The position numbers and the translations under genes are program-made. Of a DNA stretch of 32,650 nt, positions 1-32,650 are shown one piece after another. Source of the DNA: a bacterium (GTDB taxonomy: Bacteria > Cyanobacteriota > Vampirovibrionia > Gastranaerophilales > Gastranaerophilaceae); NCBI GenBank assembly GCA_017467605.1, contig JAFUSQ010000012.1:1-32650 (forward strand), given 5' to 3'. Each line of letters begins with the position of its first letter. Positions within the stretch are counted from its first letter, which is position 1. Below the pieces are notes generated by a model. The model had not been told where the DNA came from. It worked only from the letters and a program-made list of their open reading frames with translations, and ran no database searches.

Positions 1-467
1 ATTGTACTGAAATATGAACCTTTATTTTCAGTAACAATTAAATTATCTAAAGCATTATTTAATGTCTTTGTCATTCTTTCAAACCCTAAATCAAAAGATT
101 TCTGTCTGTATTTAGAGACAAAAATAGGTAATACAAGTGCTGATATTACCCCAACTATTACACAGGCTAATAAAACTTCGGTTAAAGTAAAGGCAGCATG
201 GGAAGCACCCCACCTAACCTGCGACTCGCTATCGCTCCCTGCACGCAGTCTCGCAAAACTCGTTCCTCGTTTGCTCGAACTTGTGTCCCCCTCTGGGGAG
301 GAACAATTTTTACACCCGTCATTGCGAGGAGCAAAGCGACGAAGCAATCCAAACTGCCTCCTCTCCTGTCCTTCGGACACCCTCTCCCGTTGGGCGAGGG
401 AATTACATTTACCCCTGTCACCCTGAACTTGATTCAGGGTCTTTTTTTTAATAGATTCTACTTTCAT
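1..467 (-). CDS. Type IV prepilin-like protein, 3' end beyond window, repeat-derived leader
   Basis: Pseudopilin/minor-pilin-like protein, exported and processed by prepilin peptidase. The hydrophobic N-terminal helix starts AFTLTEVLLACVIVGV at 194-147, with the conserved Glu five residues into the mature protein and Ala in place of Gly before the cleavage site. I translated the minus strand codon by codon from ATG 467 to the window edge and found no stop. GGAG lies about 10 nt before that ATG. A further in-frame ATG at 500 has no ribosome site. There is no ATG between 467 and the pilin motif, so the leader is about 92 residues instead of the usual 5-25. Almost all of it (TLNQVQGD, FAPRNDG, SSPEGD, QVRWGAS) is translated interspersed repeat. 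Only about 62 residues of mature protein are in the window. A start at an internal GTG (380) or TTG (347) cannot be excluded. Confidence 0.75.
   Translation of the reverse strand, partial: MKVESIKKKTLNQVQGDRGKCNSLAQRERVSEGQERRQFGLLRRFAPRNDGCKNCSSPEGDTSSSKRGTSFARLRAGSDSESQVRWGASHAAFTLTEVLLACVIVGVISALVLPIFVSKYRQKSFDLGFERMTKTLNNALDNLIVTENKGSYFST
205..458. repeat. Composite of interspersed palindromic repeats inside prepilin leader
   Basis: Several modules lie side by side. At 205-220 is GCACCCCACCTAACCT, at 286-303 TCCCCCTCTGGGGAGGAA, at 315-332 CCCGTCATTGCGAGGAGC, and at 418-443 an arm beginning GTCACCCTGAACTTG. The first three recur exactly at 32510-32525, 32525-32542 and 32464-32481. The last arm recurs with small changes at 23158-23184. 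In the right-hand copy the first two modules are contiguous; here about 65 bp (221-285) separate them, so this copy looks like an element with another inserted. The stretch is GC-richer than its surroundings and is open in the pilin frame throughout. Confidence 0.8.
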
Positions 468-542
468 ACTCAAATATCTCCAAATAAATCCCTTATACAT
501 AATGCAAATATAATCGTAGCATATAAACTAATAATTTTATAC

Positions 543-8013: not shown

Positions 8014-8904
8014 CTAGTAATTCATCTTACCTTCTTCAATTAAGCGTGCACCGCAAAAAAATCCAAGTTTAATACTTCCATAGCACGATTCATTTACAAT
8101 GGAAGTTTTATCAGAAGCAATACAAGATTTATTGGGTCCCCATATATTCCCGCAAAATAGGTGATTCTCAGCTGGGTCTAAATAAACACCAAAAACATCT
8201 CTACCTAAAATATTTGGACCACTATCCGGACCATTTATATCTACATAACCATCACTTCCAAATAATGAAAAACCATTATGCCTTAAACTAAATAATATTC
8301 CGTCTAATGTTATAAATCCATATCCGCAAATATTTTCGCTACCTCCTTGCCTGCCTTTTCCATCATAAGTATCTGATATACCTAATTTCCTATAGCCGGC
8401 ACAAACTTCACCGTAATTATCCGGCGTAAAAATTCTAGCAACCTTAAAATATGATGCGAAATTCTTTAATTTTTCATCTGTCATATATTCATTGCTTGCA
8501 GCGTCCATTAAAACACCATAATCGTCCTCATATTGTCTTAATACATTTTCCAGTTGGCTTCTTGCCTTCATAAAACCTGTATAATATTGCTTTTTCTGGT
8601 AGTTTTTAATAAGTGCCGGAATAGTCAATGCTGCAACAACTCCAATAATACCGAGGGTTATAAGCACTTCTGAAAGAGTGAAGGCATATCTACCTCTTTT
8701 CCTAAGGTATCGTAAACTTTTCATTGATTGAGCAATAGGAGATTCCACGGTGCAAATTTCCGTGTCATTCAGAGCGAAGCGTGGAATCTCGGAAATTTGC
8801 ACCTCTGAATGACATGATTTTGTTAGTTTTTTGCAATGAAAAGTTAAGAATGTTCTTATAGAGGGAAAATTATTAGCACTACCGGATACAAATATCTTTT
8901 TCAT
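8014..8904 (-). CDS. Type IV prepilin-like protein with long repeat-bearing leader
   Basis: Minor-pilin/pseudopilin-like protein. The N-terminal helix AFTLSEVLITLGIIGVVA starts at residue 74, with Glu at mature position 5. The rest is a globular domain rich in Gly and Cys, with paired cysteines near the end (CGNIWGPNKSC, CYGSIKLGFFC). AGGAG lies 7 nt before ATG 8904, so I take the full 296-residue frame with a leader of about 74 residues. An internal ATG at 8724 would give a normal 14-residue leader but has no ribosome site. The extra leader sequence (CHSEVQISEIPRFALNDTE) comes from an inverted-repeat element. The gene is divergent from the XRE regulator at 9039 and probably controlled by it. 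Confidence 0.82.
   Translation of the reverse strand: MKKIFVSGSANNFPSIRTFLTFHCKKLTKSCHSEVQISEIPRFALNDTEICTVESPIAQSMKSLRYLRKRGRYAFTLSEVLITLGIIGVVAALTIPALIKNYQKKQYYTGFMKARSQLENVLRQYEDDYGVLMDAASNEYMTDEKLKNFASYFKVARIFTPDNYGEVCAGYRKLGISDTYDGKGRQGGSENICGYGFITLDGILFSLRHNGFSLFGSDGYVDINGPDSGPNILGRDVFGVYLDPAENHLFCGNIWGPNKSCIASDKTSIVNESCYGSIKLGFFCGARLIEEGKMNY
8715..8845. repeat. Nested, interleaved inverted repeats inside prepilin leader
   Basis: An outer perfect pair, AACTTTTCATTG (8715-8726) and CAATGAAAAGTT (8834-8845), encloses three perfect inverted pairs in the order A B C A' B' C'. A is 8739-8749 with 8780-8790 (11 bp). B is 8750-8761 with 8791-8802 (12 bp). C is 8763-8774 with 8803-8814 (12 bp). 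Because the pairs are interleaved, only one of A, B or C can form as a simple hairpin; forming them together would make a pseudoknot. The whole block is open in the pilin frame. Confidence 0.85.
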
Positions 8905-8928
8905 AAATTTCTCCTTTCAATTAAGCAA

Positions 8929-12972: not shown

Positions 12973-13551
12973 CTATAAATTACGTATTTCTGCAGAAATA
13001 TCACGTCTTAAATAATCCATATTTCCTTTTTTTATTGCCCACTTAGTACAATATGTGCCATTGTAAGCAGATTTATTGTTGTATTCACAAATCCAATTGC
13101 TATTAATAGGGGAACGAGGAGCTAATGTACCATCAGATATAAAACCAAATATAAAATAATCTACACCTGCCTTATTTGGAGGAGCAATACCGTTTACATC
13201 AACATATACAACCCCGCAAGAATTAGTAATATTTTGACAATTACCGTCTGAGAAAAATACAAAAGATACCCCATTTATTAACTGAGCCTGTCTTGAATAA
13301 TACATATTATTAGGCTGTTGTGCAAAAGCCGCACCAAATAAAGACTTATACTCTCCGGAATAAAAACAATATTTTTTATTTTTCTCACACACCCCTTCAA
13401 TTTTTAAATATGGTTTTAAATAATCAAAAAATATATTAGAGGAATTAGTACTAGCAGTCAAATTCCAACCATCGGGATCACCATATTCGTAAATAGCATG
13501 TTTATATGCCTGTGAAAATATTGAATAAGAAATGTCTTTATCTCTATACAA
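12973..13551 (-). pseudogene. Prepilin relic lacking leader, cleavage site and N-terminal helix
   Basis: The frame matches the globular part of the prepilin at 31723: SYSIFSQAYKHAIYEYGDPDGWN aligns with the region after the pilin helix (split here). Later come LINGVSFVFFSDG, VYVDVNGIAPPNKAGVDYF and the shared ending CTKWAIKKGNMDYLRR. The first 30 or so mature residues are absent. The only start-like codon is TTG 13551, without a ribosome site, and an in-frame TGA lies at 13588-13590. The upstream edge runs straight into the tail of an XRE gene on the other strand. This is best read as a deletion product; expression of a truncated cytoplasmic fragment is possible but unlikely to serve a pilus. 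Confidence 0.75.
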
Positions 13552-29903: not shown

Positions 29904-29921
29904 TTGGGAAATAATGAATTA

Positions 29922-30096
29922 AAAAAGCCCGATATAGGCGGATTTTGTTACCTGCTCGACTCGCAGGTGGGTGAGCACCCTGACTTAATCCGTTTCCCGC
30001 TGGCGATAAATTATCGGCGGGTATACTTCAATGTCTAGGAGTTAACTCTCCCTATTTATGTAAATGTAGGAACAAAATTAACACCTATATCAAGCT
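29922..30096 (-). ncRNA. ssrS: Structured RNA with 6S RNA architecture (candidate ssrS)
   Basis: About 175 nt transcribed leftward. The ends pair over 12 bp (30084-30095 with 29927-29938, with G-U pairs), then over 8 bp (30071-30078 with 29942-29949). A large central bubble follows, whose 3' strand carries two small hairpins, one closed by ACCUGC/GCAGGU and one by GGGU/ACCC. Beyond it CCUAGAC pairs with GUCAGGG, then an internal loop, and an apical CCCGC/GCGGG stem capped by CGAUA/UAUCG. The 3' end runs into six U residues. This rod with a central bubble is the 6S plan, in which the RNA mimics an open promoter and binds RNA polymerase. A promoter with perfect -10 sets the 5' end at A 30096. 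The family call rests on the fold, not on a sequence match. Confidence 0.62.
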
Positions 30097-30102
30097 ATTT
30101 TC

Positions 30103-31722: not shown

Positions 31723-32650
31723 TTACCAATCTTGCGGAATAGGTTTGCGCAGGTAGTCCATATTGCCATGTTTCAAAAGCCACGTTGTACAAAATGTTCC
31801 GTTAACATTCGATAAGTCACCATATTTACACTTAACATTATAATAATTCATATTTGAAATTGAAGGGAGAAAAATAGTTTCCTTACCAATTCTAAATCCA
31901 AAATAATCAACTCCGGCTCTATTTGGAAGATCAATGCCATTTATATCAACAAAAATAGCTCCACATTGATCGTTATCGCACCCAGAACCATTTGACCAAA
32001 AGGCAATACTCGTACCATTTAATAATTGCCCGCGAGCATAAACAGAATGTGAATTAGGCTGCCATGCATATCTGTCACTAAACAATGCCTTGTATGTGCC
32101 TTCGTAAAAACAACCGTGAGACGTTCCACACTCTCTTGCAAGTTTTAAGTGAGGTTTATAAATTTCGTATAATTTCTTAGCTCCATTTGCAGTGTTCGCA
32201 ACTCCTATATCCCAGCCTTCTGCTGAACCATTTTCTGCAACCGCTAATTTGTGTGCTAGATTTAATATTGCATAAGTCGCTTTTAATTTATTATAAGTAG
32301 TTTTTTCCTGAATTTTTGTCATAAGAGTCGGAATTGTCATTGCACTCACAACACCGATTATGCCGAGGGTTATCAGCACTTCCGCGAGCGTAAATGCTGA
32401 TTTTTTAAAGTGGATAAGTTGATAAGTAGATGAGTTGATAAGTTCTTTACGGTTATTAAGCCTCCCGTCATTGCGAGGAGCGAAGGCAGCTTTCTTGTCC
32501 CTACGGGATGCACCCCACCTAACCTCCCCCTCTGGGGAGGAATAATATTTACCCCTGTCATTCTGAGGGCGAAGCCCGAAGAATCGCAATACCTTACAAG
32601 ATTTGCTTGACATTGAGATCTTTCGCCCTGCGGGCTCAAGATGACGATAA
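31723..32650 (-). CDS. Type IV prepilin-like protein, 5' end possibly beyond window
   Basis: Minor-pilin-like protein. The helix AFTLAEVLITLGIIGVVSAM starts at 32397, with Glu at mature position 5. The globular domain carries YAWQPNSHSVYARGQLLNG, FVDINGIDLPNRAGVDYFGF and the ending CTTWLLKHGNMDYLRK, shared with the relic at 12973. ATG 32613 would give 296 residues and a 73-residue leader. However, no ribosome site precedes it and the frame stays open to the window edge, so the true start may lie outside. There is no ATG or GTG between 32613 and the pilin motif. The leader (LRPQNDRG, SSPEGEVRWGAS, FAPRNDGR, then a tandem-repeat tract) is repeat-derived, as in the other two prepilins. Confidence 0.8.
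   Translation of the reverse strand, partial: YRHLEPAGRKISMSSKSCKVLRFFGLRPQNDRGKYYSSPEGEVRWGASRRDKKAAFAPRNDGRLNNRKELINSSTYQLIHFKKSAFTLAEVLITLGIIGVVSAMTIPTLMTKIQEKTTYNKLKATYAILNLAHKLAVAENGSAEGWDIGVANTANGAKKLYEIYKPHLKLARECGTSHGCFYEGTYKALFSDRYAWQPNSHSVYARGQLLNGTSIAFWSNGSGCDNDQCGAIFVDINGIDLPNRAGVDYFGFRIGKETIFLPSISNMNYYNVKCKYGDLSNVNGTFCTTWLLKHGNMDYLRKPIPQDW
32413..32645. repeat. Composite of palindromic and tandem repeats inside prepilin leader
   Basis: From left: four tandem octamers of GATAAGTT type (32413-32444); CCCGTCATTGCGAGGAGC (32464-32481); a contiguous GCACCCCACCTAACCT and TCCCCCTCTGGGGAGGAA block (32510-32542); and an inverted pair, 32557-32585 beginning GTCATTCTGAGGGCG with 32617-32645 ending GGCTCAAGATGAC. 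Three modules are shared exactly with 205-332. All are open in the pilin frame. Confidence 0.8.

Follow-up and report, generated by a model that had tools for sequence, protein, structure and literature searches.

Palindromic repeats that stand between genes and also lie in frame inside open reading frames (ORFs) are known from Rickettsia (Rickettsia palindromic elements, RPE) and Wolbachia, and tests have shown, at least for gmk, that the inserted element is translated (PMC2229807). ATGAC is frequent in RPE-4, RPE-6 and RPE-7 (PMC3767692). RPEs measure 105-146 bp, form a long stem-loop and enter many unrelated, conserved proteins, while the enterobacterial mobile sequences RU-1, RU-2 and RU-3 occur in isolated secretory signal peptides with no recurrent target. 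Prepilins are made with a class III signal peptide, whose described leaders comprise 6-26 residues, or about 15-30 in type IVb prepilins (PMC4471445).

The repeats found here in prepilin leaders share several of these traits: like the RPEs and the Wolbachia repeats they are dispersed between genes and in frame inside ORFs, and like RPE-4, RPE-6 and RPE-7 they are rich in ATGAC (9.9-11.1 per kb in repeats, 1.5 in ORFs). Unlike RPEs, they leave other ORFs almost free, with strict GC-filtered repeat runs in 44 of 177 prepilin leaders versus 8 of 852 other ORFs, most of the latter repeat-only ORFs, and at one site of a single gene family many elements, up to 200 codons, have accumulated. As to the size and fold seen in RPEs, one element here measures about 100 nt and has a hairpin, the others are shorter or unfolded, and several are not palindromic. 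Since the range of unrelated target genes typical of RPEs was not found and the phylum is a different one, we do not file these repeats as RPEs. They also differ from RU-1, RU-2 and RU-3 in that the target is the class III leader of dozens of paralogues. The extended hydrophilic leader recalls the long-leader, type IVb-like prepilins, but reaches 213 residues and is built of dispersed repeats. A further likeness is to phase-variable contingency genes, since relatives in the same order carry G or C tracts of 8-12 in prepilin leaders, but the leaders of the genome under study are without such homopolymers. What sets the present case apart from known in-frame repeats is the single, putatively cleavable target site and the size of the mosaics. 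No paper describing a build-up of repeats in prepilin leaders was found in the open literature searched.

The window analysed is the entire contig C49 (32,650 nucleotides) of a 79-contig, 2.19 Mb metagenome assembly. The named relatives of its prepilins are from Candidatus Gastranaerophilales, non-photosynthetic gut relatives of cyanobacteria. A genome-wide search with the Pfam N-methylation motif PF07963 gave 149 places, and a search model built from the stretches selected in this way gave 177 prepilins in 1.22 of the 2.19 Mb; the 1.22 Mb read are stretches picked for holding prepilins, with ORFs called mechanically. Features of the window are collected in Table 1.

Table 1 Prepilin loci and leader repeats in the window, and homopolymer tracts in leaders of related genomes.
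Feature	Position	Strand	Details
Left prepilin, truncated by contig end	3..467	-	92-codon leader 192-467, then AFTLTEV (F codon 189-191)
Left-leader repeat mosaic: TLNQVQGD, RFAPRND and SSPEG...VRWGAS elements	200..459	-	masked 200-305, 315-351, 360-389, 392-459 (392-442 + 445-459)
GGAG upstream of ATG 467	478..481	-	10-nt spacing
Middle prepilin	8014..8904	-	74-codon leader 8683-8904, then AFTLSEV (F codon 8680-8682); PF07963 at residues 70-93
Shine-Dalgarno AGGAG upstream of ATG 8904	8911..8915	-	
Palindromic element CHSEVQISEIPRFALNDTEICTVESPIAQSMKS within middle leader	8716..8816	-	hairpin about -28 kcal/mol; masked 8715-8847
Right prepilin	31723..32613	-	leader of at least 73 codons (32395-32613), then AFTLAEV (F codon 32392-32394); PF07963
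Non-palindromic element NNRKELINSSTYQLIHFKKSA adjoining right cleavage site	32392..32460	-	masked 32390-32459; no predicted fold
Right-leader repeat mosaic: FAPRNDG, SSPEGEVRWGAS, FFGLRPQND	32464..32588	-	masked 32464-32485, 32510-32588
Repeat YRHLEPAGRKIS running past contig end	32613..32650	-	masked 32613-32650; same block mid-leader in C61:115228 and C12:24771
Poly-G/poly-C leader tracts, genome G022	L141:13391, L141:14766, L148:2386, L148:8253, L153:16144, L155:9314		
Poly-G/poly-C leader tracts, other relatives	L195, L196, L215-L217, L220, L225, L234 and others		

The original prediction held that the window contains three intact prepilins whose unusually long leaders are made largely of palindromic repeats. 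Their lengths of 92, 74 and at least 73 codons and the repeat content were borne out by masking and by copies in other leaders and intergenic DNA. Three prepilins are indeed present, but the left one runs off the contig and is not intact. Elements of the left leader recur in 15-36 leaders and 5-27 intergenic places in the genome parts read, CHSEVQISEIPRFALNDTEICTVESPIAQSMKS has 6 copies in leaders and 21 in intergenic DNA, and NNRKELINSSTYQLIHFKKSA occurs in 25 leaders with 6 intergenic copies. The description as palindromic suits CHSEVQISEIPRFALNDTEICTVESPIAQSMKS with its strong hairpin but not several others; since the 3'-most block of the right leader folds into no hairpin, not every element is a palindrome. 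Likewise, the elements had been said to be read in the same frame and orientation each time, which applies to 345 of 469 leader-to-leader matches genome-wide and not to the remainder. Another stretch, at 12973-13551, resembles the right-hand prepilin as a fragment without the N-terminal motif, and was left out of the prepilin tally because its N-terminus is missing. Within the window, Rfam returned a 6S RNA (29921-30100, minus strand) as the sole match and nothing at the prepilin leaders. Among the contigs examined, 24 of 116 contig ends, including both ends of the window, lie less than 700 bp from a prepilin motif, about twice a rough chance expectation; the repeats probably break the assembly there.

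At the left and right loci there is, as first noted, no ATG between the repeat and the AFTLxEV motif. The middle locus likewise has its strong Shine-Dalgarno sequence (SD) on the far side of the repeat; a second in-frame ATG (8722-8724), 14 codons before the motif, has no SD and lies inside the CHSEVQISEIPRFALNDTEICTVESPIAQSMKS repeat, and 'QSMKS' around it recurs in other copies of that repeat. The right prepilin probably begins beyond the contig end with a leader longer than 73 codons, because its ATG lacks an SD, no stop interrupts the frame up to 32650, and in a fuller copy (C61:115228) the SD-ATG lies further upstream. In an AlphaFold model of this protein, disorder extends over residues 1-73 (pLDDT about 45) and a long pilin-like helix starts at residue 76; a fold search with the model gave nothing significant, the best match being a pilin (1ay2, E 0.78).

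Genome-wide, dispersed repeats separate the start codon from the cleavage site in about 75 prepilins, and leader lengths fall into two groups. When leader length was taken over all readable prepilins, a check that had been proposed at the outset, about half were of 4-25 residues, and among the 168 there were 78 above 30, 55 above 50 and 27 above 100 residues. Leaders reach up to ten times the known length, with the mature protein intact. For repeat density, prepilin loci were excluded when a dictionary of repeated 14-mers was compiled, which kept leader-specific sequence from biasing the result. Repeat cover with this dictionary was 17.0% in leaders, 4.3% in intergenic DNA, 0.33% in other ORFs and 0.04% in mature prepilins, and leaders are the most repeat-dense DNA class among those tested in this genome. 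The flanks differed, with 1.1% in the 300 bases before prepilin starts and 9.1% in the 300 bases after the genes; elements are placed 3' of the start codon and not 5' of it. A dictionary from all sequence marked 46% of leader bases as repeat, and strict runs numbered 73 in 24.9 kb of leaders versus 0.63 per kb of intergenic DNA. The expectation that leaders are richer in repeats than intergenic DNA therefore stood in this genome, but was not borne out in the sister genome G020, where the two were about equal (3.7% versus 3.3%, with a dictionary from a smaller sample); a replicate of the density comparison in G022 found no usable repeats. As a separate observation, one of the few other repeat-bearing ORFs (C61:48863, 558 aa) has its repeats within residues 1-44, directly ahead of a hydrophobic stretch and thus again at a cytoplasmic N-terminus.

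Such repeats are usually intergenic and the leader motif requires few residues, so they might be untranslated 5' DNA, with translation beginning at a non-standard codon beside FTLxEV. Where a prepilin has no start close by, the nearest ATG that lies outside repeats and has a strong SD was located in any frame, the chance of agreement with the motif being 1/3. This ATG was in frame with FTLxEV in 58 of 62 cases (58:2:2; p = 2.4e-23), 57 of them open throughout over 27-206 codons, and in G020, which has other repeats, in all 11 (11:0:0; p = 5.6e-6). In the leader frame, the share of stop codons was 2.0% for intergenic element copies versus 0.37% for leader copies, and that of net frameshifts 40% versus 26%. 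The distant SD-ATGs in frame with the motif support the earlier proposal that the leader repeats are translated. Together with the avoidance of the region before the SD-ATG and the depletion of stops and frameshifts, the frame counts make initiation beside the motif very improbable. Fourteen of the 75 repeat-bearing prepilins have no open SD-ATG within 750 bp, some of them on account of contig ends. These few genes without a usable start, and the window fragment lacking its N-terminus, could be taken to mean that repeat-bearing prepilins are decaying pseudogenes. We consider this scarcely credible: Gly or Ala at -1 and Glu5 are present in 72 of 72 repeat-bearing genes and in 80 of 80 short-leader genes, and dN/dS (0.24 versus 0.25) and mature length (226.5 versus 227) are the same in the two groups.

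In other respects, too, the repeat-bearing genes look alive. The last ten residues before the cleavage site carry a charge of +2.2 in repeat-bearing and +2.1 in short-leader genes, and 1 of 72 repeat leaders contains a membrane-like stretch. Gly/Ala at -1, Glu at +5 and a PF07963 match identify these proteins as type IV prepilins; only the leader falls outside 6-26 residues, and as that range is descriptive and no functional requirement, the long-leader genes are still filed as prepilins. A search for the prepilin peptidase at E 0.001 was empty, but an absent enzyme was rejected, since a laxer search and reading of ORFs gave a divergent, full-length gene (C46:13282-14403), the only one in the genome, with GEGD, two CxxC pairs and a weak PF01478 score. 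Weak PF01478 scores are a feature of the prepilin peptidase throughout the genus, whereas scores in other families of the order are normal. This single putative peptidase probably cuts off the long leaders. Removal by it, as originally suggested, is consistent with the tolerance of insertions, given one peptidase gene, an intact cleavage site in all 72 and a leader that is predicted to be disordered.

Our preferred reading, to which we give a probability of roughly 0.6, is that short dispersed repeats find a safe harbour in prepilin leaders and are translated there, the leader later being cut off and the mature pilin left unchanged. Elements would land downstream of the start codon but short of the final few codons ahead of the cleavage site, and the survivors would be insertions that preserve the frame and contain no stop codon. 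The translated repeats would form a soluble, disordered extension of the N-terminus that remains cytoplasmic, and the prepilin peptidase would cut this off after the conserved Ala/Gly. In-frame insertions could survive there because the leader appears disordered, cytoplasmic and probably removed, and they would be close to neutral. Tolerance alone predicts a density no higher than that of intergenic DNA; the density in this genome is fourfold higher, so something more is needed. The excess, which is seen here and not in G020, suggests recombination between paralogous leaders or a site preference; redundancy (about 175 paralogues) and recombination between leaders would explain it, and recombination among paralogues probably spreads the repeats.

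In the likeliest of the alternatives, blocks of leader sequence are copied among the roughly 175 paralogues by homologous recombination or gene conversion, so that repeats multiply with leaders and not by repeated insertion. A near-identical start of the mature domain and common leader repeats are shared among the paralogues, some blocks stop at one point ahead of FTLAEV in numerous genes whose mature domains are unrelated, and C40:863 and C28:7171 share a block and the start downstream of it but have unlike 5' leaders. Third-position identity over the first 14 mature codons is 0.45-0.51 where 3' modules are shared versus 0.38 in short-leader genes, but the difference is small and not tied to particular modules (E7-E5, 0.476). 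Most element families also stand alone in intergenic DNA. Moreover, the 85 leaders of at least 30 aa represent 71 architectures, so most were assembled independently, and as the modules are also spread over unrelated mature-domain families, the leaders do not descend from one duplicated ancestor. We therefore regard copying of leaders as the main route as possible but doubtful. One element, AFTLAEGPRRTGYSATNFGKTPRLLRSAG followed by FTLAEV, is an insertion of about 84 nt exactly at the FTLAE codons with the FTLAE coding sequence repeated on both sides. It is present in about 30 prepilins of this genome (e.g. C40:918-1006 and C28:7102-7190) and almost confined to prepilins, and the leader up to FTLAE is common to C58:2662, where the site is empty, and C40:863, where it is filled. 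A different element at the same spot, FTLAEGATHV...RRAA followed by FTLAEV, was found in 32 of 192 genomes and 7 of 45 genera of the order, all in one family. As a mover, RAYT was rejected: short palindromes such as GTTGGGTGAAACCCAAC lie beside each of three RAYT-like Y1 transposase genes (PF01797; C46:15917, C5:2752, C30:14333) and are unrelated to the leader repeats, none of which was found directly at these three genes.

It is also conceivable that the repeats are functional, tuning or switching single prepilins through mRNA hairpins near the start, or serving as a substrate of recombination or slippage for surface variation. Several elements have strong hairpins, and the prepilin family is very large and variable, prepilin-query matches within the genus (G000-G024) ranging from 3-20 to about 90-150 per genome at similar genome sizes; in genomes with few prepilins the leaders seen are short. 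In G022 and several other species, a run of 8-12 G or C follows directly on the SD-ATG of the leader, ahead of the motif (Table 1), and 31 of 33 assembled frames are off, with 24 needing +1 or -2 nt, 7 the other shift and 2 in frame by length (24:7:2). These tracts, at the same leader position, may reflect phase variation or programmed slippage. In the genome under study, 0 of 177 prepilins have a poly-G tract of at least 7 within 250 bp before the motif, so poly-G phase variation was rejected there, and frames are on, not off. Element order and identity vary among leaders, which argues against a shared regulatory structure. A function of this kind for the repeats thus seems unlikely. Likewise unlikely is the broader idea that the Gastranaerophilales leader is an evolved variation module, which collects repeats and homopolymers because it is cut off; through slippage, frameshift or recombination, these would switch or recombine single members of a family of more than 100 surface subunits and so change the pilus repertoire.

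In-frame repeat insertion was already known, as scattered accidents in unrelated proteins. In the present genome, most insertions into coding sequence have gathered in one putatively cleavable segment of a single gene family, assembled independently many times, and related species do likewise with different elements. As a practical consequence, automatic annotation will put the starts of many prepilins of these gut bacteria in the wrong place. The prepilins also lend themselves, as a natural experiment, to studying what length of leader a prepilin peptidase accepts and how repeats turn into coding sequence.
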